Assembly (NCBI RefSeq): GCF_002754375.1
Contig: NZ_PEFF01000001.1
Location: forward strand, 6,093,501-6,157,500
DNA: 64,000 nucleotides
Reading direction: 5' to 3'
DNA from: Variovorax sp. 54
GTDB lineage: Bacteria; Pseudomonadota; Gammaproteobacteria; Burkholderiales; Burkholderiaceae_C
Shown here: one piece after another, positions 51,008 to 62,460 of the stretch
How the letters are laid out: each line of letters starts with the position of its first letter
Position numbering within the stretch: the first letter of the stretch is position 1
Position numbers and translations under genes: made by a program
Notes under the pieces: generated by a model
Seen by the model: the letters and a program-made list of their open reading frames with translations, nothing else
Databases searched by the model: none
Told to the model about the DNA's origin: nothing

Positions 51008-54000
51008 ATGTTTGTTCACCTGCGTCTGCACACCGAGTTTTCCGTCGTCGATGGCACGAATCGAATCGACGAAGTCATCAAGGTCGCCGCTGCCGACAAG
51101 CAGCCCGCGCTGGCCATCACCGACCTGAACAACCTGTTCGGGACGGTCAAGTTCTACAAGCAGGGCCGGGGCAAGGGCGTCAAGCCCGTCATCGGCGCTG
51201 AAATCTTCATCGACGGGCTGGGCAAGGAGCCCGGCGCGCTGACCCGCCTCATCCTGCTGGTGCAGAGCATCGAGGGCTACCTCAACCTGTCGGAGCTGCT
51301 GGCCCGCGCCTGGACACAGAACGTGAGCCGCGGCCAGTCGCAGGCGGCCTGCAAGCTCGAATGGCTGCAGGAACTGCAGGGCGGGCTGATCGCGCTGTCG
51401 GGCGCACAGGCCGGGCCGCTGGGCCAGCCGCTGCTGCAAGGCCAGGAAGAGCGCGCCGCCGAGCTGGCGCTGCAGCTCGCGGGCATGTTCCCGCACCGTT
51501 TCTACATCGAGCTGCAACGCGCCGGCCGCCCTGAAGACGAACCGCACGTGATTGCCGCAGTGAAGCTCGCCGCCCGCCTGAAGCTGCCGGTGGTCGCCAC
51601 GCACCCGGTGCAGTTCGCCGAACGCCAGGACTACGAAGCGCATGAGGCGCGCGTGTGCATTTCCGAAGGCGAAATTCTGGGCAACCCGCGCCGCGTGCGC
51701 AAGTTCACCGAAGAGCAGTACTTCAAGTCGAGCGCCGAGATGCAGGCGCTGTTCGCCGACGTGCCGAGCGCGCTGGCCAACACGGTCGAGATCGCCAAGC
51801 GCTGCAACCTGACGCTGGTGCTCGGCAAGCCGCAACTGCCCGACTTCCCGACGCCCTTCATCAGCGAAGGCGTGCGCATGCCGATCGGCGAGTTCTTCCG
51901 CCAGGAGTCGTTCGACGGGCTGGAGGTGCGGCTGAAGCACCTGTTCCCCGACGAAGCCAAGCGTGAGGCTGAGCGGGCGCGCTACGTGGAGCGCCTCGAG
52001 TTCGAGATCAACACGATCCTGAACATGGGCTTCCCCGGCTACTTCCTGATCGTGGGCGACTTCATCAAGTGGGCCAAGGAAAACGGCTGCCCCGTGGGGC
52101 CGGGCCGGGGCTCGGGTGCAGGCTCGCTCGTGGCCTACGCGCTGAAGATCACCGACCTCGACCCGCTCGAATACAAGCTGCTGTTCGAACGTTTCCTGAA
52201 CCCCGAACGCGTCTCGATGCCCGACTTCGACATCGACTTCTGCCAGGGCAACCGGGACCGCGTGATCGACTACGTGAAGGACAAGTACGGCCGCAACGCC
52301 GTGAGCCAGATCGCCACCTTCGGCACCATGGCCGCGCGCGCGGCCATCCGCGACGTGGGCCGCGTGCTCGACATGAGCTACATGTTCTGCGACGGCATCA
52401 GCAAGCTGATTCCGAACAAGCCGGGCATGTCGGTCACGCTGCAGTACCCGCCCGCGACCAAGATCGAAGGCGACAAGAACAACTACGCCATCGAGATGGA
52501 GCCGCAACTGGCGGAGCGCATCGAGAAGGAAGAAGAAGTCCGCATGCTGGTCGAGCTCGCGCAGAAGCTCGAAGGCATGACCCGCAACATCGGCATGCAC
52601 GCCGGCGGCGTGCTCATTGCGCCGGGCAAGCTCACCGACTTCTGCCCGCTGTACCAGCAGCCCGGCAGCGAATCGGCCGTGAGCCAGTACGACAAGGACG
52701 ACGTCGAAGCCATCGGCCTCGTGAAGTTCGACTTCTTGGGTCTTGCGACGCTCACCATCCTGGAGATTGCGCGCGAGTTCATCATGAAGCGCCACAAGAG
52801 CCAGGAGAACTTCGCGTTCGAGAACATCCCGCTGAACGACGGACCGACCTACCGCCTGTTCTCCGACGGCAAGACCGAGGCCGTGTTCCAGTTCGAATCC
52901 CGCGGCATGCAGGGCATGCTGAAAGATGCGCGGCCCACGCGCCTGGAAGATCTGATCGCGCTGAACGCGCTGTACCGTCCGGGCCCGATGGACCTGATTC
53001 CCAGCTTCGTGGCGCGCAAGCACGGCCGCGAAGACGTGGAGTACCCGCACCCGGCCGTGGCCGAAATGCTCTCCGAGACCTACGGGATCATGGTCTACCA
53101 GGAGCAGGTGATGCAGACCGCGCAGATCCTGGGCGGTTACTCGCTCGGCGGCGCCGACTTGCTTCGCCGCGCGATGGGCAAGAAGAAGCTCGAGGAAATG
53201 GCCGAGCACCGCGAGAAGTTCCGCGCGGGCGCCCTGGCCACGCACGGCATCGTGCAGGACAAGGCCGACGAAATCTTCGACTTGATGGAGAAGTTCGCGG
53301 GCTACGGCTTCAACAAGTCGCACGCCGCCGCCTACTCGCTGCTGGCGTACCACACGGGCTGGCTCAAGGTCCATTACACGGCCGAGTTCTTCTGCGCCAA
53401 TATGACCGTGGAAATGGACGACACGGACAAGCTGAAGCTCTTGTTCGAAGACGCCCAGAAGAACTTCAACATCACCTTCGAGCCGCCGGACGTGAACCGC
53501 GGCAACTACCGCTTCGAGCCGGTCACCAACCGGATCATCCGCTACGGCCTGGGCGCCGTGAAGGGCACGGGCCAGCTCGCGGTCGAGGCCGTGGTGCGCG
53601 CGCGCGAAGAGGGCGGGCCGTTCAAGAGCCTGTACGACTTCTGCGTGCGCATCGACCGCCAGCGCATCAACAAGCGCACGGTCGAAGCGCTCATCAAGGC
53701 CGGCGCGTTCGACGCGATCCAGCAGAACCGCGCGTCGCTCATCGCCTCGGTCGATCGTGCCTTCGAGTTCGCCATTGCCACCGCGGCCAACGCCTCGCAG
53801 GTCGATATCTTCGGCGACTGCGAGCACGGTTCGGCCACGCAGGAACCCGACCTGGTCGATGCCACGCCCTGGGGCGTGAAGGAGCGCCTGACCTTCGAGA
53901 AGACCGCCGTCGGCTTCTACCTGTCGGGCCACCTGTTCGACGAGGTCTCGCACGAGGTGCGGCGCTTCTGCAAGCGCGAGATCGGCGACCTGCTCGACAG

Positions 54001-54526
54001 CCGCGACCCGCAGGTCATTGCCGGCATCGTGAGCGACTTCCGCGTCATCAACGGCCAGCGCGGCCGGCTGGCGATCTTCAAGCTCGACGACAAGTCGGAG
54101 TCCATCGACGCCACGGCCGACGAGGCGCTCATCAACGCCAACCGCAACACGCTGAAGGACGACGAGCTCGTCATCGTGAGCGGCAAGCTGCAGCCCGCGC
54201 GCGGCGGCTTCGAGGCGCGCTTCCAGGTGCAGCAGGTGTGGGACCTGGCTTCGGCGCGCTGCCGCTTCGGCAAGTTCCTGCGCGTGGCGGTCAACGGCAA
54301 GGTGCCCGAGATCGCGCGCCTCCTGAAAGACTTTCCGGCGCGCACCGAGCAGACCGAGGTCGGTGACCTGGTGCACGGCCTGCCCGTGCGCCTGTCGATG
54401 GCGCGGGGCGGGGCACAGGTCGAGTTGCAACTGGGCGAGCGCGCGAAGTTCTTCCCGACCGATGCGGCGCTCGCGAGCTGGACCGCGCAGGCGGAAGCCG
54501 GCAAGGCGCAGGTCATCTACGATTGA
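51008..54526 (+). CDS. dnaE: DNA polymerase III alpha subunit
   Basis: This 1172-residue replicative polymerase has the PHP domain from residue 1 (FVHLRLHTEFSVVDGTNRI), the palm with the catalytic aspartates D406, D408 and D410 in PDFDIDFCQGNRDRV, the NMGFPGYFLIVGDFIKWAK fingers, the tandem HhH region and the C-terminal OB fold. Length is normal for dnaE1 of Proteobacteria. It is flanked by trhO and a YgiW-like gene, and the ATG is preceded by a TACAAT box. Confidence 0.97.
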   Translation: MFVHLRLHTEFSVVDGTNRIDEVIKVAAADKQPALAITDLNNLFGTVKFYKQGRGKGVKPVIGAEIFIDGLGKEPGALTRLILLVQSIEGYLNLSELLARAWTQNVSRGQSQAACKLEWLQELQGGLIALSGAQAGPLGQPLLQGQEERAAELALQLAGMFPHRFYIELQRAGRPEDEPHVIAAVKLAARLKLPVVATHPVQFAERQDYEAHEARVCISEGEILGNPRRVRKFTEEQYFKSSAEMQALFADVPSALANTVEIAKRCNLTLVLGKPQLPDFPTPFISEGVRMPIGEFFRQESFDGLEVRLKHLFPDEAKREAERARYVERLEFEINTILNMGFPGYFLIVGDFIKWAKENGCPVGPGRGSGAGSLVAYALKITDLDPLEYKLLFERFLNPERVSMPDFDIDFCQGNRDRVIDYVKDKYGRNAVSQIATFGTMAARAAIRDVGRVLDMSYMFCDGISKLIPNKPGMSVTLQYPPATKIEGDKNNYAIEMEPQLAERIEKEEEVRMLVELAQKLEGMTRNIGMHAGGVLIAPGKLTDFCPLYQQPGSESAVSQYDKDDVEAIGLVKFDFLGLATLTILEIAREFIMKRHKSQENFAFENIPLNDGPTYRLFSDGKTEAVFQFESRGMQGMLKDARPTRLEDLIALNALYRPGPMDLIPSFVARKHGREDVEYPHPAVAEMLSETYGIMVYQEQVMQTAQILGGYSLGGADLLRRAMGKKKLEEMAEHREKFRAGALATHGIVQDKADEIFDLMEKFAGYGFNKSHAAAYSLLAYHTGWLKVHYTAEFFCANMTVEMDDTDKLKLLFEDAQKNFNITFEPPDVNRGNYRFEPVTNRIIRYGLGAVKGTGQLAVEAVVRAREEGGPFKSLYDFCVRIDRQRINKRTVEALIKAGAFDAIQQNRASLIASVDRAFEFAIATAANASQVDIFGDCEHGSATQEPDLVDATPWGVKERLTFEKTAVGFYLSGHLFDEVSHEVRRFCKREIGDLLDSRDPQVIAGIVSDFRVINGQRGRLAIFKLDDKSESIDATADEALINANRNTLKDDELVIVSGKLQPARGGFEARFQVQQVWDLASARCRFGKFLRVAVNGKVPEIARLLKDFPARTEQTEVGDLVHGLPVRLSMARGGAQVELQLGERAKFFPTDAALASWTAQAEAGKAQVIYD

Positions 54527-54623
54527 TCGGATCGCGCGGGCCGGCGGGGAACCTCGGGGCCTTCGTGCGGTCCATCAGTCTGTTGCAACCTGGCCTTGGG
54601 CCACTCACAGGAGGAACGACCGC

Positions 54624-54995
54624 ATGCATTTCAAGAAGATCCTCAAGACCACCGCATTGACGTTCGGCCTGGCGCTGCCCATGGCTGCGGCCTGGGCCCA
54701 GTACGCCGGCCCGAGTTCGGTGCCCAACCTCACGGTCAAGCAGCTGCTCGAAACCGGGCAGGACGACCAGCACGCCACGGTGCGCGGCTTCATCGTCTCG
54801 CACGACGGCGGCGAGCACTACACCTTCGCCGACGACACGGGCCGCCTGAAGGTCGAGATCGACGCCAAGTACTTCCCGCCGGGCGTGAAGATCGATGACA
54901 AGGTGCGCGTCGAGCTCAGCGGCGAGTTCGACAAGGACCGGCTCACCGGCAAGACCGAACTCGACGTCAAGCGCGTCATCACCGTCCTGCGCTGA
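54624..54995 (+). CDS. YgiW/YdeI-type periplasmic OB-fold protein
   Basis: This 123-residue protein has a signal peptide ending AAWAQ and the OB-fold block VKQLLETGQDDQHATVRGFIV, followed by YTFADDTGRLKVEID and VRVELSGEFDKDRLTGKTELDVKRV. The E. coli relatives YgiW and YdeI respond to stress and cationic peptides. A strong aggagga site precedes the ATG. Its last 17 bases overlap the end of the convergent helicase-nuclease gene. Confidence 0.9.
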   Translation: MHFKKILKTTALTFGLALPMAAAWAQYAGPSSVPNLTVKQLLETGQDDQHATVRGFIVSHDGGEHYTFADDTGRLKVEIDAKYFPPGVKIDDKVRVELSGEFDKDRLTGKTELDVKRVITVLR

Positions 54996-57900
54996 CCCCT
55001 GCCTTTTTTTCGAGCGCCTGTTCGACCTGGTCGAGCACGGCCTCGGGGGCGTGCAGCCAGTCCTTGGCCAGCACCTGCATCACCTGCCAGCCGAAGGCAT
55101 CGAGGATGCGCGGACGCGAGACGTAGCGCTCCAGCACGTTGTGGCGGCGGCCGTCCTGCGCCGCGCCGTCCACCAGGATGCCCAGCGCATAGTGGCCCTG
55201 GCCCGACGCGCGCACCGCGAGGTCGCAGCGAAAACGCGACTGACCCACCTGTTCGTCCACCGCATGCCCGCGTGCGCGCAGCGCCTGCGCGATCTGCGCC
55301 GTGACGTCGTCCGTGCGCGCCTGCCGCGCCACGTGGCCACGGGCGAGCGGGTTCATGCCTTCGAGCACGCGCCGCGCCGTGTCCTCGTCGCCGCGTGACA
55401 GGCACTCGGCATAGCGCAGGAAGTTCTTCAGCGCCGCCGCGCCCTCGTTGTGGTCGTTGGTGATCGCCTCGTGGCGGATGGTCGAGACCACCGCCATGTG
55501 GTGCTTGGCGCGGCTGAAGATCACGTTCAGCCGCTTCTCGCCGCCGCGCTGGTTGATCGGGCCGAAGTTCATCAGCATGCGGCCCTCGGGGTTGGGGCCG
55601 TAGCAGATGCTGAGGATGATGATGTCGCGCTCGTCGCCCTGCACGTTCTCCAGGTTCTTGATGAAGAGGCCGCAGAACTGGTCGTCTTCCTCGCGCACGT
55701 ACTCGGCCTCGAGCCGCGCCGCAAAGTCGGCATCGACCGCGCCGAGCGCGTTCAGCTCTTCCTCGATCTCGCCCTGTTGCGCCTCGGAGAACGCCACGAT
55801 GCCCAGGCTGCGCCCGGTCTCGCGCTGGAGCAGTTCGCGCACCAGCTGCGCGATGTGGCGCGCCTCGCCGTCGTTGATGCGGTTCTCGTACACGGCGTCG
55901 GCCACGCGGTGGAAGCTGATGGCGCGCGAGAGCAGGGCGTCGACCTGCGCCTTCACGGATTCGTCGGTCGGGCTGCGCGACTGCACCACGATCTCGGCGC
56001 GCTCGGGCGCGGGCAGGCTGCGGTCGGGAATGGTGTACAGGTTGCCCGCGTAGAAGGCCGCGTTCGAAAAGCCGATGAGCGACTCGTAGCGGCTGCGGTA
56101 GTGCCAGGCCAGCAGCGTGGCCGGCAGGTTGCGCGCACCCTGGTTCAAGAGGCTGTCGGCGTCGAGCACCACGGCGATGCGTTCGGCTTCTTCGCCGTTC
56201 TCTGCATCGTCGCCCTCCACGGTGACGGTGTCTTCCTCGGCATCGCGGCCCGACGAGAAGAAGCTGGTCGGCGGCAGCTGCATCTCGTCGCCCACCACGA
56301 TGATCTGCGACGCGCGGTACAGCGCGGGCACGGCTTCTTCCACTGGAATCTGGCTGGCCTCGTCGAAGATCACCACGTCGAACAGGTCGGCCGCAAGCGG
56401 CAGCGTGTCGGACACCGACAGCGGGCTCATGAGCCAGATCGGTTTCATGTCGCGCACCACGCGGCCGGTGTCGCCGCTGGCGAGTTCGCGGATCGCCTTG
56501 TAGCGCATGGTCTTGCCGAACTCGTGCTCGAGCTCGCGGCGGCCCGCGTTGTAGCTCTTCTTGAAGACCTTGCCGTCGGCGTCGAGCTGGCTGGCGGGCA
56601 GCGCGCTCTTTTGCACATGGTCGCGGAAGCGCTGGCGCACCGCGGCGGCGAGCGTGCGTGCGTTGCGTTCGAGCAGCTTGCGTTCGCCTTCGCCCAGGCG
56701 CTGCGCATGGCGCGCGAGCTTGGCGCCGTCGAAGCGCGGCAGCCAGCGTTCGGTGCGGTAGACGCGCTCCAGCCCTTCGCGTGCGACGGCGTACTCGATC
56801 GCTTCGGGCGGCAGCGGCAGGGTGCGCAGCGCGGCGGCCACGGCAGGGTCGGCATCGGCCAGTTCCTGCAGCGGCTGCAGCACCGACGGCAGCGCATCGG
56901 CCTGGTCGCGCAGCGTGCGGGCCAGCGCGTCGAACGCGTCCAGCGGTTGCGCGCCGGCGTCATGCAGCAGGTCGTGCCAGAGGGCGTCGAGCGTGTCGAC
57001 GCGCGGCGCGGCGGCGACAAGCTGTTCGACGCTGCGGCGGGCCGCATCGGTGCGCAGGTGGGCCTGGAAGGCCGCGCGCAGGCCGGCGCCGCCGTCGATG
57101 CCGCGCATGGCCTGCAGCTGCTGCGCGAAGGCGTCGGCATCGGTGCAGCCGTAGTCGGCTTCGATGCGTGCTGCTTGCTGGTCGAGCGCGGTGCGCGCGG
57201 CCTGTTCGGCGCGCAGGTCTTCGAGGATCTGGCTGGGCTGCGGGCGCACGGCATGCGCGGCGAAGTCGTAGCGGCGCTTGAGTTCGCCCGACAGGCGCCA
57301 CCACGAGGGCTGCAGCCAGCGCAACAGCGAGCCTTGCTGCGTGCGGGCCTGCGCGAGTGCGGCTTCGGTATCGCCGGGCGAGAGCTTGTCGCGCCAGTGG
57401 GCGGTGCGTTGCAGCTGCGCGTCGAGCGCTTGTTGCAGCGTGCGCTTCTCGTTCAAGGTGGCGCCGAGCGCGAGGCTGCTCGGGTGCGCGGCGTCGAGCA
57501 GCGCCAGCTGGCCGCGCGCGGCCAGCGAGGCGACGCTGCGCGCATCGGCCACCACGGCCCGCGCATCGCGCCACAGCACGCCGGCCTCGGCCAGCGGCGG
57601 CCAGGCGTCGACCAGCGCATCGCGGCAAGGCGCGCTCAGGTCGATGGCGCGTTCGCTGCGTTCGACCAGCCGCGCCAGTGGCTTCTCCTGCGCCAGCAGC
57701 GACGGTGCGAGCTGCGCGAACACATGCTGCGCGAAGCTGGGCGCACCCAGGCTTTCGGTCACGGCCAGGTGCAGGCGCGACACCAGCTCCGCATGCCGGC
57801 GCCAGGCCGCGAAGGCGGGCAATGCTTCGGCCTGCAGCGGCGTGAGCGACGGGTCGCTGGCCTTGAGTGCCACGAGCCGCGAGAGCAGCTCGCGCAGCGT

Positions 57901-60198
57901 CACCGCGATGTGCTCGGGCACGTCGTGCATGGCGGCGTCGAAGCGTTCGAGGGCGCGCAGGTCGAGGTCCATCGCGTCGAGCACCTGTGTGCGCTCCGTG
58001 CTTTCCTGTGCCAGCGTGCCGGGGGCTTCGAGCCACAGCTCGTAGGTCTTGCGCAGGTTCTGCACGAAGGCCTTCTTGTCGCCCTGCGAGTCGTGAATCA
58101 TGCAGCACAGCTCGTCCAGCCCCTGCTGGCGCAGGCGGTGAAACACGACGTCGATGGCGGCGCGCTTCTCGCAGACGAACAGCACGCGCTGGCCGCGGCC
58201 CACGTAGTCGGCGATCAGGTTGGTGATGGTCTGCGACTTCCCCGTGCCCGGTGGGCCCTGGATGATGTAGCTGGTGCCCGTGCGCGCCAGCGCCACCGCA
58301 GCGGTCTGCGTGGCGTCGGCCTGCACCACGGGCCACTGGTCGGCCAGCGGCAGGGCGGGCGGCGTCTCGGCGTCGACGCGGCGCGGCTGCAGCGAGAACA
58401 CGCGGTCGAAGGCCTCGCTCGCCAGGTCGGATTCGGCCAGCCCCGAGTAGTCGCGTACCAGCGACATCTTGCGGTGGTTGAAATTGCCCAGCGTCACGGC
58501 CGTGAGGTCGATGTCCCACTGGTAGGGGTTGCCGCTGCTGTCGCGCAGCGCGAAGGTCTTGCGCTCGGTGTCATCGGCAGCCGTGGCCGCCATCTGCGGC
58601 GCGCGCGGCTGTGGCGCGCCGCCGACGGCTTCGCGCACCGGCAGCGGCACGGGGCGCACGCGCGCATGGAACAGCTGCAGCCCGCGCGGGCGGAAGTCGT
58701 CCTGTGCGTAGCTGAAGTCTTGCGAGGCCACCGGCACCGCCGAGGGCGAGCGCACGCGGGTGCGGCGCTTGAACTGTTCGAGCCGCTGGCGCGCGCGCTG
58801 GTGCATCACGGCGATTTCGGGCTGCTTCACGAGCCGCAGCTGCACGCCAGGCTCGCTCTGCGCGATCTGCGCCGACAGCTGCGCGTGGAACTGTTCGAGC
58901 GAGGTTTCGCGCAGGTCCACCGTCTCGGGCAGCGCGATGCCGTACAGCTGGCGCAGGTGGTGGCGCAGCGTGGGGTTCACCTGCGCCTCGCTGGCCGAGG
59001 CTTCGAGCAGGTACTGGTCGCGCACGCCTTTCTTGCGCGTCAGCTCCACCGGCAGCATCAGCAGCGGTGAGGCGATGCGTTCGGCGCGTTCGGCCTCGCC
59101 CTCCTTGAGGTTGTGCCAGCGCAGGAAGGCGACCACCAGCGACAGCTGCGAGAAGCCGTACTCGGCCCGGTCGCGCCGTGCCTCCTGCAGGATGCGGTCG
59201 AGCGCGCCCGGCAGGTAGGGCTGGTCTTCGAAGCGCAGCCAGCGCGCCAGCGGCACGGGGTCGCAGCTGGCGATGTCGGCGGCAAAGCGGCTGTCCCATA
59301 CGCACAGTTGGTCGGTGCGGATGCTGTTCAGGTCGACCACCAGCGGCACGCTGGCGACGGTGAGGTTCACATGCGCCTGCGTCGGCTTGAAGTACAGCAG
59401 GCGGTTGCGCCGCGACAGATCGAACAGCCGGTCGCGCAGGTGCAGCTGGATCGCCTGGCGGCGCTGGCCTGCGCCGTCTCTTGCGGGTGCGATGCGGTCC
59501 AGGCCGAGGTCGACGGGCTGGTCGCGGTAGGTCTCGAGCCGGCGGATGACCGAGGGCAGGTCGCGCGCACGCTCGTGGCGGTCGAGCGCGGTCATCTCGA
59601 AGATCACGGCGGCCACCACCGGGTGCAGCCGGCGGTTCAGTTCGAACAGGTTGCCGCGGTGCGTGGCAAAGCGGGTCAGGTCGTCGCCATCGGTGAAGTC
59701 GAGCCCGCACGACAGGCTGGCCAGCACCTGGCCCAGGCAGAGGATGTCGCCGAGCGCGTCGTGGTGGCCCAGGCGCAGTTCCCACGCGGTGTAGCCGGGC
59801 AGGTAGACGGGTCGCGTGGGCACCGTGTCGGGCCCGGCATCGGCCATGACCGCGAGGTTTTCGAGCGCGACGCCGGCCTCGGCATCGACGGTCAGGCGCG
59901 TTTCGCCGACCACGCGCAGCACGGAGGCGGCGGGTTGTTCGAGCGGCGCGATCGCCTCGGGGTGGCGGCGCGGCGCGGTGCCGTCGGGCTGGGCCAGTGC
60001 CAGCGCGGGTTCGGCGGGTGCGTCGGTCACGCGGTAGGCAAACGCGCTGCCGAGCGCGGCAACGTTGCCGAGTTCGTGCAGGGCCGAGACCTCGCGCAGC
60101 AGCGGCAGCACGAGCTTGAGCACGTCGTCGGTCTGCAGGCCACCGTGGGCCTCGGCGGTGGCTAGCAGTTGCAGGAGCGGGGCGGGGGCGAGGGTCAT
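54979..60198 (-). CDS. Kinase-like lobe + DUF4011 + SF1 helicase + MTES/Vsr-type nuclease
   Basis: This 1739-residue protein has four parts. Residues about 20-230 resemble the C-lobe of a protein kinase without its catalytic residues: LHELG near 40, PGYTAWE at 134-140 (APE-like), GDILCLG at 150-156, and HERARDLPSVI at 208-218. The DUF4011 core LRDRLFDLSRRNRLLYF is at 254-270. The SF1 helicase has Walker A GPPGTGKS at 648-655, an insertion of about 620 residues, Walker B FDEAS with D1279-E1280, GDEMQLPP at 1303-1310 and SRAK at 1562-1565. The C-terminal domain, with D1659 and LVDG (D1677), matches a Vsr-like nuclease of the REase MTES-1575 type. DUF4011-helicase-nuclease proteins are known from bacterial defence islands. 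The start overlaps the M48 gene by 4 bases. Confidence 0.85.
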   Translation of the reverse strand: MTLAPAPLLQLLATAEAHGGLQTDDVLKLVLPLLREVSALHELGNVAALGSAFAYRVTDAPAEPALALAQPDGTAPRRHPEAIAPLEQPAASVLRVVGETRLTVDAEAGVALENLAVMADAGPDTVPTRPVYLPGYTAWELRLGHHDALGDILCLGQVLASLSCGLDFTDGDDLTRFATHRGNLFELNRRLHPVVAAVIFEMTALDRHERARDLPSVIRRLETYRDQPVDLGLDRIAPARDGAGQRRQAIQLHLRDRLFDLSRRNRLLYFKPTQAHVNLTVASVPLVVDLNSIRTDQLCVWDSRFAADIASCDPVPLARWLRFEDQPYLPGALDRILQEARRDRAEYGFSQLSLVVAFLRWHNLKEGEAERAERIASPLLMLPVELTRKKGVRDQYLLEASASEAQVNPTLRHHLRQLYGIALPETVDLRETSLEQFHAQLSAQIAQSEPGVQLRLVKQPEIAVMHQRARQRLEQFKRRTRVRSPSAVPVASQDFSYAQDDFRPRGLQLFHARVRPVPLPVREAVGGAPQPRAPQMAATAADDTERKTFALRDSSGNPYQWDIDLTAVTLGNFNHRKMSLVRDYSGLAESDLASEAFDRVFSLQPRRVDAETPPALPLADQWPVVQADATQTAAVALARTGTSYIIQGPPGTGKSQTITNLIADYVGRGQRVLFVCEKRAAIDVVFHRLRQQGLDELCCMIHDSQGDKKAFVQNLRKTYELWLEAPGTLAQESTERTQVLDAMDLDLRALERFDAAMHDVPEHIAVTLRELLSRLVALKASDPSLTPLQAEALPAFAAWRRHAELVSRLHLAVTESLGAPSFAQHVFAQLAPSLLAQEKPLARLVERSERAIDLSAPCRDALVDAWPPLAEAGVLWRDARAVVADARSVASLAARGQLALLDAAHPSSLALGATLNEKRTLQQALDAQLQRTAHWRDKLSPGDTEAALAQARTQQGSLLRWLQPSWWRLSGELKRRYDFAAHAVRPQPSQILEDLRAEQAARTALDQQAARIEADYGCTDADAFAQQLQAMRGIDGGAGLRAAFQAHLRTDAARRSVEQLVAAAPRVDTLDALWHDLLHDAGAQPLDAFDALARTLRDQADALPSVLQPLQELADADPAVAAALRTLPLPPEAIEYAVAREGLERVYRTERWLPRFDGAKLARHAQRLGEGERKLLERNARTLAAAVRQRFRDHVQKSALPASQLDADGKVFKKSYNAGRRELEHEFGKTMRYKAIRELASGDTGRVVRDMKPIWLMSPLSVSDTLPLAADLFDVVIFDEASQIPVEEAVPALYRASQIIVVGDEMQLPPTSFFSSGRDAEEDTVTVEGDDAENGEEAERIAVVLDADSLLNQGARNLPATLLAWHYRSRYESLIGFSNAAFYAGNLYTIPDRSLPAPERAEIVVQSRSPTDESVKAQVDALLSRAISFHRVADAVYENRINDGEARHIAQLVRELLQRETGRSLGIVAFSEAQQGEIEEELNALGAVDADFAARLEAEYVREEDDQFCGLFIKNLENVQGDERDIIILSICYGPNPEGRMLMNFGPINQRGGEKRLNVIFSRAKHHMAVVSTIRHEAITNDHNEGAAALKNFLRYAECLSRGDEDTARRVLEGMNPLARGHVARQARTDDVTAQIAQALRARGHAVDEQVGQSRFRCDLAVRASGQGHYALGILVDGAAQDGRRHNVLERYVSRPRILDAFGWQVMQVLAKDWLHAPEAVLDQVEQALEKKAGVSAGR

Positions 60199-61433
60199 GC
60201 GGCGGCGGCTTGCGAAGGCGGGTTGGCGGCCTTGTCGAGCAGGGCGGCGGCGTCGCGTTTGACGCGGGTGAAGTTGCGCTTGGACAGACCCAGGTCTTTC
60301 AGCACGCGCTGTTCGAAGGGCGTGGCGCAGTCCAGCGCATCGGCCAGGCCCAGCGCGGCGGCGAGGGTGACGTCGTCCATCTCGGGGTCGGCGGCGACGA
60401 AGTCGACCAGCACGCTGGCCAGGTAGTCGTGCAGGCCGGCGGGCGCGGGCTCGGGCGGCGGCATCGCCGACGTGGGCGGCACGAAGTCGGGGAAGAAACG
60501 GCGCGCATGCGCCAGCAGCGCTTCCGACTGCAGCACGGGCCGTTGCAGCAGCTGCGCGAGGGTGCCGCGCGTGAGCGCGCTCACGCGCTGCTGGCCGAGC
60601 ATGTCGAGCGTGCCCAGGTCGAGCGGGCCTTCGAGCGCGGCGGCCAGCCATTCGTCGGCGTCGTGCTCGCGGCCGGTCCACAGGCGCAGCGCGCGGGCGC
60701 GCACGAACACCTCGGGGTGGCTCACGCCGCGCGTCTGCAGCGCCTTGTTGTTGGGGTCGGCGCAGATCTCCTCGGCCTGCGCCAGGTAGCTCGCCACGTT
60801 GACCTGCGTGAGGCCGGTCTCGATCTTGATGAGCGCGCTCACGGCGGGTTCGAGCGCGCCACAGGCCACGCAGCCGCCGCGGTCGGCAAAGGCCTCGGTG
60901 TACAGCGCATGGCGCCGCGCGGCCTGCAGGTGGCTCGCATCGGCGCGCGGGTCGGCCGCCGTGGCGTGCAGCAGGCGGTCGACGACGTGGTGCCTGCCGC
61001 CGTCGCGTTCCCACAGCAGGTAGTGCGCGAGCTCGTGGCCGAGCACGGCCTGGCGCTCCGGGCCCTGCAGCCGTTCGAGCAGCGGGCCCGAGAGCACGAT
61101 GTGCGCCTCGCCCGGCACGACGTAGATGGCGGCATTCATGGCCGCGCCGTCGCCGGACGGGGCCTGGTAGAGCGTGATGCGCGCCGTGACGCCCAGCCGC
61201 TGCGCGGCCAGGGTCGCATCGGCATGCAGGTCGGGGTGTGCGTCGGCGTCGAGGCGGTAGGCGCTGCGCAGCAGCTCGGCGCGCATGGCGGCCGTGTGTT
61301 CTTCGCGCGCTTCGGCGGAGGCGGCCCAGCGCCAGGCCTCGGGTTCGTTCGCCTGGAGGTGAGCGGCCAGTGCCTGCTGGTAGGGCAGCGGCGTCAGGTC
61401 TTGGAGGCGAACGGCAGGGAAAGAGTCGACCAT
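60195..61433 (-). CDS. M48-type zinc metallopeptidase
   Basis: This 412-residue protein has an M48-like catalytic core: HELAH at 133-137 with the third ligand E180 in YTEAFADR, and a GALEPAVSALIKIETGL helix after it. No signal peptide or membrane segment is seen, unlike HtpX or Oma1, so it should be cytosolic. The C-terminal 170 residues are helical and unrecognised. It overlaps the helicase-nuclease gene by 4 bases (ATGA), which implies joint synthesis. I infer that it modifies or activates the partner by cleavage, or acts on an invader protein. Confidence 0.82.
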   Translation of the reverse strand: MVDSFPAVRLQDLTPLPYQQALAAHLQANEPEAWRWAASAEAREEHTAAMRAELLRSAYRLDADAHPDLHADATLAAQRLGVTARITLYQAPSGDGAAMNAAIYVVPGEAHIVLSGPLLERLQGPERQAVLGHELAHYLLWERDGGRHHVVDRLLHATAADPRADASHLQAARRHALYTEAFADRGGCVACGALEPAVSALIKIETGLTQVNVASYLAQAEEICADPNNKALQTRGVSHPEVFVRARALRLWTGREHDADEWLAAALEGPLDLGTLDMLGQQRVSALTRGTLAQLLQRPVLQSEALLAHARRFFPDFVPPTSAMPPPEPAPAGLHDYLASVLVDFVAADPEMDDVTLAAALGLADALDCATPFEQRVLKDLGLSKRNFTRVKRDAAALLDKAANPPSQAAAA

Positions 61434-61493
61434 GTCAGGAGCGCCAGCAACATTGAGTTGCCGACGATCCTAAACGAGCGGGTGACGTCGCTT

Positions 61494-61520
61494 GCAATCA
61501 CCCACGATGTGGGTGATTGC
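61494..61520. promoter_or_regulatory. 12-bp hairpin between tolA and the M48 gene
   Basis: GCAATCACCCAC and GTGGGTGATTGC form a perfect 12-bp stem with a GAT loop, 17 bases after the tolA stop. No T-tract follows on the minus strand. It may mark the end of the tol transcript or hold a regulator site for the peptidase gene, which starts 60 bases further. Confidence 0.55.
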
Positions 61521-61536
61521 GGCCCCAGCGCTTGGA

Positions 61537-62460
61537 TCAGCGCTTGGGCTTGAGCGTGACGATGAGCGACGGGAAGATGCGCCCGTCGTTGTCGCGCGGC
61601 AGCTTGTCGGTCTTGCGCAGGCCGCGTTCGGCGGCTTCGTCCCAGGCCGGCAGGCCGCTGGACTTGGCGAGCTTGACGCCGACGATGGTGCCGTCGGGTG
61701 CCAGGTTGACCAGGAACTCGGCCTCGGGGTTGCCGTTCACGCTGTCGGCATCGGGGAAGGTGATGTTCGGGCGCACCTTCTCGGCGATGCGCGCACCGTA
61801 GCCACTCGACGGGCCGGTGGTGCGCAGGGCATTGCCCTTCGCGTCTTCGTTGCCGCTGGCGCCGGCCATGCCCTGCATGCGCTTGAGCGTTGCGGCGCGA
61901 TCCGCGGCCGCCTGCTTGGTGGCCGCTTCAGCCTTCTTCGCTTCAGCCTGCTTGGCCTCGGCCTCCTGCTGCTTTTTCTGGTCGGCCAGTTTCTTCTGTT
62001 GCTCTTTCTTGCGCTCGGCTTCGTCTTCGGCGCGCTCCTTGGCCTCGAGCTCTTTCTTCTTTTGCTGCTGGCGCTGCTGTTCGAGCTCGCGCTCTTTTTG
62101 CGCTTTCTGTTCCTTGAGCTTCTTCTCGCGCTCCAGCGCGATGTCGGGCGCAGGGGCAGGCGCCGGCTCGGGCGGCTTGACGGCCGGGGGAGGCGGTGGG
62201 GGCGGCGCGGGCGCAGGCGGCGGCGGTGCGGGCACGGGGGCCGGCGGCTCCGGCACCGACAGGCGCGGAGCGGCCTGCATCACCGTGGTCGACCACAGCT
62301 CGGCATCGACCGCGCCGTCGTCGGCTTCGCTGCGCCAGCGCACCCCCCACGTGAGGGCGGCGATCAGCAGCGCGTGGGCAATGAGCGCGAGCACCACCGC
62401 GCGGGGCGTGCCGCGCTGCGGCGGCGGCGCGAACTCGGGGCGATCCAGGGCGAGCGACAT
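61537..62460 (-). CDS. tolA: Cell-envelope protein TolA
   Basis: This 307-residue protein has an N-terminal membrane helix (VVLALIAHALLIAALTWGV), a proline-rich segment, a long coiled region rich in K, E, A and Q (about 110-195), and a C-terminal TolA/TonB domain (RIAEKVRPNITFP, GTIVGVKLAKSSGLPAWDEAAERGL). It links the TolQR motor to the outer membrane and helps the envelope constrict during division. It follows tolR by 3 bases. Confidence 0.92.
   Translation of the reverse strand: MSLALDRPEFAPPPQRGTPRAVVLALIAHALLIAALTWGVRWRSEADDGAVDAELWSTTVMQAAPRLSVPEPPAPVPAPPPPAPAPPPPPPPAVKPPEPAPAPAPDIALEREKKLKEQKAQKERELEQQRQQQKKKELEAKERAEDEAERKKEQQKKLADQKKQQEAEAKQAEAKKAEAATKQAAADRAATLKRMQGMAGASGNEDAKGNALRTTGPSSGYGARIAEKVRPNITFPDADSVNGNPEAEFLVNLAPDGTIVGVKLAKSSGLPAWDEAAERGLRKTDKLPRDNDGRIFPSLIVTLKPKR

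Follow-up and report, generated by a model that had tools for sequence, protein, structure and literature searches.

A 64,000-nucleotide stretch of Variovorax sp. 54 DNA (contig NZ_PEFF01000001.1, positions 6,093,501 to 6,157,500; hereafter the window) carries, on its reverse strand, a gene for an M48-type metallopeptidase of 412 aa (60195..61433; open reading frame and Pfam) and a gene for a DUF4011-superfamily 1 (SF1) helicase of 1739 aa (54979..60198, with its ATG at 60198; open reading frame and profile matches), whose products, judged from their sequences, very probably form one functional module. The explanation of the pair that we favor, with a probability of about 45%, is that the helicase would serve as a sensor and the peptidase, closed by an active-site plug, as an effector against invaders. 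The pair is undescribed as far as the searched literature shows, in which we found no M48-DUF4011 system. An initial annotation of this locus had reported a 4-base overlap between a peptidase gene, with a HELAH motif and Glu180, and the gene for the 1739-residue helicase; its coordinates and residues were correct, and the shared stop/start ATGA lies at 60195..60198 on the reverse strand.

The partnership extends beyond this genome. The peptidase scored above 340 bits in 20 of 101 Variovorax genomes, and the helicase scored above 2000 bits in exactly the same 20, always with the peptidase adjacent; this tally leaves out short peptidase matches of 20-24 bits around the HExxH and helicase matches of at most 254 bits. 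Because our genome searches scored few candidates per genome (3-18 in large ones), the presence found here and below is a lower bound. In the four carriers from other genera (G066, G985, G687, and G1326), the two genes overlap by a few bases in every case, with the G687 helicase gene itself split into two overlapping frames (L094:4688-10352) by decay, a frameshift, or an assembly error. The initial annotation had called the peptidase a constant partner and had suggested a search for M48 neighbors across genomes; all 24 genome-placed peptidase orthologs indeed adjoin the helicase (20 in Variovorax and four in other genera), and in two distant genomes the two are fused. Since the pair is conserved in other genomes, chance pairing is excluded.

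Homologs at E 0.001 or better numbered 706 for the peptidase and 1040 for the helicase among the 8000 candidates scored per search. Among 104 divergent helicase rows (P0146-P0249), at least 25 match a divergent peptidase row by the exact length of the longest contig, against a chance expectation of 0.08 obtained with shifted lengths; 102 divergent peptidase rows entered this comparison (P0026-P0129 minus two fragments), in which unmatched rows say little. Distances between peptidases track those between helicases with an r of 0.980 across 13 Variovorax strains (the window plus 12 loci), as against 0.63 and 0.68 with the flanking gene that we take to be dnaE. At 17 Variovorax loci that were fetched for their other, weaker-scoring helicases, a part of all such rows, no peptidase match was present. 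A class-wide peptidase search of 369 genomes returned 15 matches, comprising the window, two orthologs, two long frames, and ten distant stand-alone peptidases. Both fusions, L095:2546-8407 (1953 aa) and L105:8701-14391 (1896 aa), contain M48, DUF4011, AAA_11/12, and MTES domains above cut-off. The support for their placement in the helicase tree is weak (0.726), so that either one or two origins of the peptidase-helicase association are possible.

The window peptidase matches Pfam Peptidase_M48 (PF01435) at E 2.9e-7 (30.9 bits; cut-off 20.3), and all 101 aligned peptidases match it at E 0.1 or better. We took an HExxH motif, a downstream glutamate, and an HPX4R motif as the mark of M48, following PMC7950410, and all three are found in the window peptidase: (i) HELAH at residues 133-137 (His133, Glu134, and His137; 61023..61037, reverse strand), an HExxH common to 101/101 aligned sequences, window included; (ii) Glu180, the third zinc ligand in an E-x-x-A-D-R context (60894..60896, reverse strand), invariant in the same 101; and (iii) HPX4R at His239-Arg245 (60699..60719, reverse strand), identified by alignment. 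In BepA, the histidine of HPX4R coordinates zinc as a fourth ligand; it belongs to a plug that occludes the active site and is thought to move for activity (PMC7950410). This motif is kept in 101/101 aligned peptidases and 11/11 solo relatives, and both fusions retain it along with HExxH and the glutamate. Among 19-residue segments of the window peptidase, the highest mean hydrophobicity is 1.38, short of the 1.6 usually taken to mark a transmembrane helix; in line with the initial annotation, the protein is probably cytosolic. No PADLOC model is matched by the window peptidase, which agrees with the earlier remark that a peptidase partner belongs to no named system; within the window, the PADLOC scan covered the two proteins of the pair.

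TerB was above cut-off in four of four tested stand-alone relatives of the peptidase and below it in both fusions (21.5 and 16.7 versus 24.4), while the C-terminal part of the fusions matched that of the stand-alone peptidases at a probability of 89.7 percent. A TerB domain at the C terminus of the paired-family peptidases, which had seemed likely by eye, is unproven, with a probability of only 0.7-2.5 percent in hhalign. The stand-alone M48 peptidases of ∼400 residues form a sister family (L096-L104, also L074 and L106); no helicase match was found near them at these loci, and the gene order around those in L100, L102, and L104 looks alike by eye.

The C terminus of the helicase holds an MTES_1575 Vsr-like domain (residues 1635-1729; 55012..55296, reverse strand; Pfam and alignment), which scores 62.6 bits. 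We aligned this region in 137 sequences, namely 118 family members (with partner peptidase genes verified for part of them, and with six incomplete helicase rows of <1650 aa left out), the two fusions, and 17 other Variovorax proteins, several of which are close kin of one another. Position 1675 is hydrophobic or Gln in all 118 family members (Leu 93, Met 10, Ile 5, Phe 4, Val 3, and Gln 3) and Leu in both fusions, whereas it is Glu in 17/17 of the other Variovorax helicase proteins; among related helicases outside the family, 18 of 19 carry the glutamate, with Glu in Thioclava and Ile in Bacteroides. Judged against the I-E-x-D-G pattern of those 17 proteins, the window domain, with Leu1675, does not have the form of an active MTES_1575 nuclease. 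The flanking glycine is mostly lost in the family, as are the canonical histidine and the RDRDRLR-like stretch; the aspartates at 1659 (111 Asp and 7 Glu of 118) and 1677 (117/118) are maintained. Because position 1675 is Leu where most related helicases have Glu, the domain is probably catalytically dead, with migration of the glutamate as the main caveat. The initial annotation was right, then, to place a Vsr/MTES-type domain here; its designation as a nuclease is doubtful. With the catalytic residues and the HPX4R plug of the peptidase retained and the MTES motif glutamate lost, we regard the peptidase as a latent protease and the likely effector of the pair.

Upstream of this domain, Pfam places DUF4011 at residues 257-415 (58954..59430), and Pfam together with alignment places the helicase parts AAA_11 at residues 628-691 (58126..58317; Walker A with Lys654) and AAA_12 at residues 1356-1572 (55483..56133; QGDERD and FSRA), all on the reverse strand. 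The motifs, named as is customary for SF1 helicases, are intact, with Walker A, a DEAS box, and motif VI placing the protein among UPF1-like SF1 helicases. Lys654 and Asp1677, singled out in the initial annotation, are correctly positioned, as GPPGTGKS runs from residue 648 and ILVDG from residue 1674. The N-terminal module (residues 15-233; 59500..60156, reverse strand) weakly resembles a kinase C-lobe without catalytic motifs in profile comparison: among 21 listed PDB matches, 20 belong to kinases or a pseudokinase (AMPK in 15 cases), at a weak best E of 0.0028 and aligned to the C-lobe; a smaller alignment gave kinase-type matches in 11 of 12 (best E 0.06), and Pfam matched a kinase in only one of 16 members (E 0.067). 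The weak likeness to a pseudokinase C-lobe is to be taken as a lead, not a result. A terminal WGR domain is present in 95 of the 104 listed divergent helicase rows (P0146-P0249), with five of the nine WGR-less rows being <1400 residues; WGR is not present in the Variovorax-like rows P0130-P0145.

The initial annotation had noted that DUF4011-helicase-nuclease proteins occur in defense islands, and the helicase is related to the anti-phage proteins Hhe and ProA. Like Hhe (NCBIfam NF042953, a DUF4011 anti-phage protein), it is a DUF4011-helicase-MTES protein, and it matches that model at 466 bits; however, this lies far under the cut-off of 2000 bits, and neither the name nor the model of Hhe, as examined here, includes a peptidase. 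The glutamate comparison above used related Variovorax helicases, Hhe itself being outside the alignment. The match to ProA (NCBIfam NF058533) reaches 681 bits, with its best stretch over residues 560-1732, but falls short of the cut-off of 1500 bits; no description of ProA was recognized in the literature searched. The best PADLOC match of the helicase is PDC-S37 (689 bits in three stretches, the best covering 216-1045 of 1550), which is a candidate system only. Although the cut-offs of Hhe and ProA are missed, the kinship to both is plain, and such a shortfall in score would be compatible with action as a sensor-effector immune complex.

Other known systems resemble single features of the pair. 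BepA and other M48 peptidases share the HExxH, the glutamate, and the HPX4R plug with its inhibitory histidine (PMC7950410); BepA, however, has a TPR domain and an outer-membrane role, whereas the window peptidase looks cytosolic and has a helicase partner. Shango, composed of a TerB-like protein, an ATPase, and a helicase, recalls the TerB of the stand-alone peptidase relatives, and TerB with a helicase is a known anti-phage combination (PMC10250203 and PMC10952713); yet Shango has three genes, none named as a peptidase, and TerB is unproven in the window peptidase. In Hachiman HamAB, the helicase is a sensor that restrains an effector and then sets it free (PMC12278908), which parallels the helicase control proposed here; the effector there is a nuclease, whereas that of the window pair is probably a protease.

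The pair is distributed patchily. Only three of 200 genomes of the family carry it, the window's own counted, and searches of the families to which G1326, G985, and G924 (the last of the fused type) belong, covering 198, 24, and 20 genomes, respectively, recovered the starting genome alone. An order-wide search of 399 genomes recovered two Variovorax genomes and one partial distant match, and a phylum-wide search of 398 genomes with the helicase N terminus recovered three genomes, two of them Variovorax. The initial annotation had reasoned that a fixed position in all relatives, with no link to phage resistance, would speak against defense. A fixed site was indeed found, the pair lying 43-592 bp from dnaE in 20/20 Variovorax carriers; however, 81 of 101 Variovorax genomes lack the pair, and four other genera carry it at other sites.

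The flanks of the window pair, between dnaE and the tol genes, are as the initial annotation gave them: dnaE (51008-54526, forward strand) and tolA (61537-62460, reverse strand), labels backed by conservation across genomes. A perfect 12-bp hairpin lacking a T-run (61494..61520, reverse strand) lies within the 103 bp between tolA and the downstream peptidase gene and possibly ends the tol transcript; a consensus scan found neither promoter nor terminator in this gap. On the other side, a small gene (∼54624-54995), OB-fold by eye, is convergent with the helicase gene, and their 3′ ends overlap by 17 bases (54979-54995). The dnaE-tolA interval varies in Variovorax (window 54526-61537, L111-L129, and L013), being empty or holding the OB-fold gene, a PBP gene, or the pair, with sigma/FecR/TonB-receptor genes as further content by eye. 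Among the 19 of 81 non-carriers whose junction was examined, six are empty (48-70 bp), one has the OB-fold gene only, and 11 have a PBP gene, one of these with iron-uptake-like genes as well (by eye); L129 was left unassigned. The idea of a defense hotspot at dnaE-tolA was rejected, as no defense gene was recognized by eye in the 19 fetched non-carrier junctions, and the Variovorax site is no recognizable defense island.

Elsewhere, G1326 has a SIR2 gene (PDC-S65, 700 bits) ∼1 kb from the pair, with HEPN-RES and PIN-like genes beyond, the PIN-like match being under cut-off (21.9 versus 23.6 bits); the cluster upstream of the pair (L110:2027-7227) reads HEPN-RES, PIN-like, an unmatched gene, and SIR2 PDC-S65. 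Two PIN genes lie ≤4 kb downstream of the G687 pair, and the L105 fusion adjoins a DUF5655 gene that matches PDC-S11 weakly (19.5 bits). The neighbors tested in G066, G985, and G924 were a transporter, a glyoxalase, and hda. In this test, which covered part of the neighbors, one copy has a clear defense context and one or two others a possible one, with none seen around the remaining copies.

In the mechanism that we favor, the two genes would encode one machine, with (i) the SF1 helicase sensing DNA (or RNA) and the latent M48 zinc peptidase as its effector, and (ii) the inactive MTES domain, plus WGR in many relatives, holding DNA. Engagement of foreign or damaged DNA by the helicase would lead the complex to shift the plug and switch the peptidase on, and the activated peptidase would cleave a phage, plasmid, or host protein, by which the invader would be stopped. 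In evolutionary terms, a protease would have replaced the nuclease as effector of an ancestral helicase-nuclease. A dead nuclease combined with a protease effector seems fairly probable; that the pair acts against phages or plasmids is, in our estimate, slightly better than an even bet, a defense role being supported by the kinship to Hhe, ProA, and PDC-S37, by patchiness, and by the one copy beside SIR2, RES, and PIN-like genes. A whole class of helicase-gated proteolytic immunity, in which a dead-nuclease DUF4011 helicase with a pseudokinase-like/WGR scaffold would unlock a plugged M48 peptidase to destroy an invader or host protein, as a single chain in some distant relatives, is a more tentative proposal.

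Several observations weigh against the sensor-protease reading. A glutamate near the lost one (ER-motif) is kept in 12 of the 12 paired rows shown, and PD-(D/E)XK folds are able to shift their catalytic residues to new positions, so that nuclease death is unproven. The Bacteroides relative, a DUF3320-type helicase on Bacteroides finegoldii plasmid 29 (L132), has Ile in place of the motif glutamate and no M48 gene among the four annotated features shown, for which reason MTES nuclease loss may have occurred more than once. The Variovorax pair sits among housekeeping genes, the other cargo of its site is PBP, OB-fold, or iron-uptake-like genes rather than defense genes, and hda lies beside one fusion. 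The peptidase had no match on plasmids, phages, or viral contigs, and the helicase had none on viral contigs (phages were not searched with it); on plasmids the helicase has distant relatives only (402 records, each of which covers less than 80% of it), and the notion of mobile-element cargo was discarded on these grounds. Finally, a DUF4011 gene flanks a defense hotspot in every P. aeruginosa isolate and can belong to the core genome (PMC10250203), and DUF4011 alone is therefore no sign of defense.

The pair might instead remove DNA-protein crosslinks, the helicase unwinding DNA up to a covalently bound protein (a damage adduct, a conjugation relaxase, or a phage terminal protein) that the peptidase would digest. 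Spartan/Wss1-type proteases act with helicases on crosslinks, and the union of a helicase with a metallopeptidase, the frequent WGR, and a SprT-like cross-match at E 0.1 in 98/101 aligned peptidases all suit this role. However, SprT/Spartan membership was rejected for the window peptidase, which scores 24.8 against a cut-off of 25.6 and has the M48 glutamate Glu180 as third zinc ligand, where SprT has a histidine; a repair factor should also show a less patchy distribution than three genomes in 200. We consider crosslink removal rather unlikely. An ordinary stress gene pair of the clade, unconnected with immunity, would account for the single site in 20/20 Variovorax carriers and for the housekeeping neighbors, but would sit poorly with its absence from 81 of 101 congeners, its scatter over distant families at other sites, and the empty ∼48-70 bp junctions, and is quite improbable.

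Two further readings keep a nuclease at the center. The retained Asp1659 and Asp1677, together with the further-on glutamate of the paired rows, would allow a classical nuclease defense with a migrated catalytic residue, with the peptidase in an accessory role, limiting damage or recycling the complex; as the canonical histidine and the RDRDRLR-like stretch have gone as well, we hold this to be unlikely. The initial annotation had proposed that the peptidase cleaves its partner to free nuclease activity. Intimate contact, as implied by fused or adjacent genes, and the appreciable MTES score would accord with such release, but the motif glutamate is absent from 118/118 family members and both fusions, and there is probably no nuclease to free; Leu1675 and its equivalents rule this out as the main model and leave it very improbable.

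Many known helicase-based bacterial defenses end in nucleic-acid cutting. If the sensor-protease reading is true, a helicase-controlled metallopeptidase would add proteolysis to this repertoire, and a large orphan family of peptidase and helicase homologs would gain a function. Given the conservation of the plug, the loss of the nuclease residue, and the existence of natural fusions, single loss-of-function mutants would suffice to test the idea.

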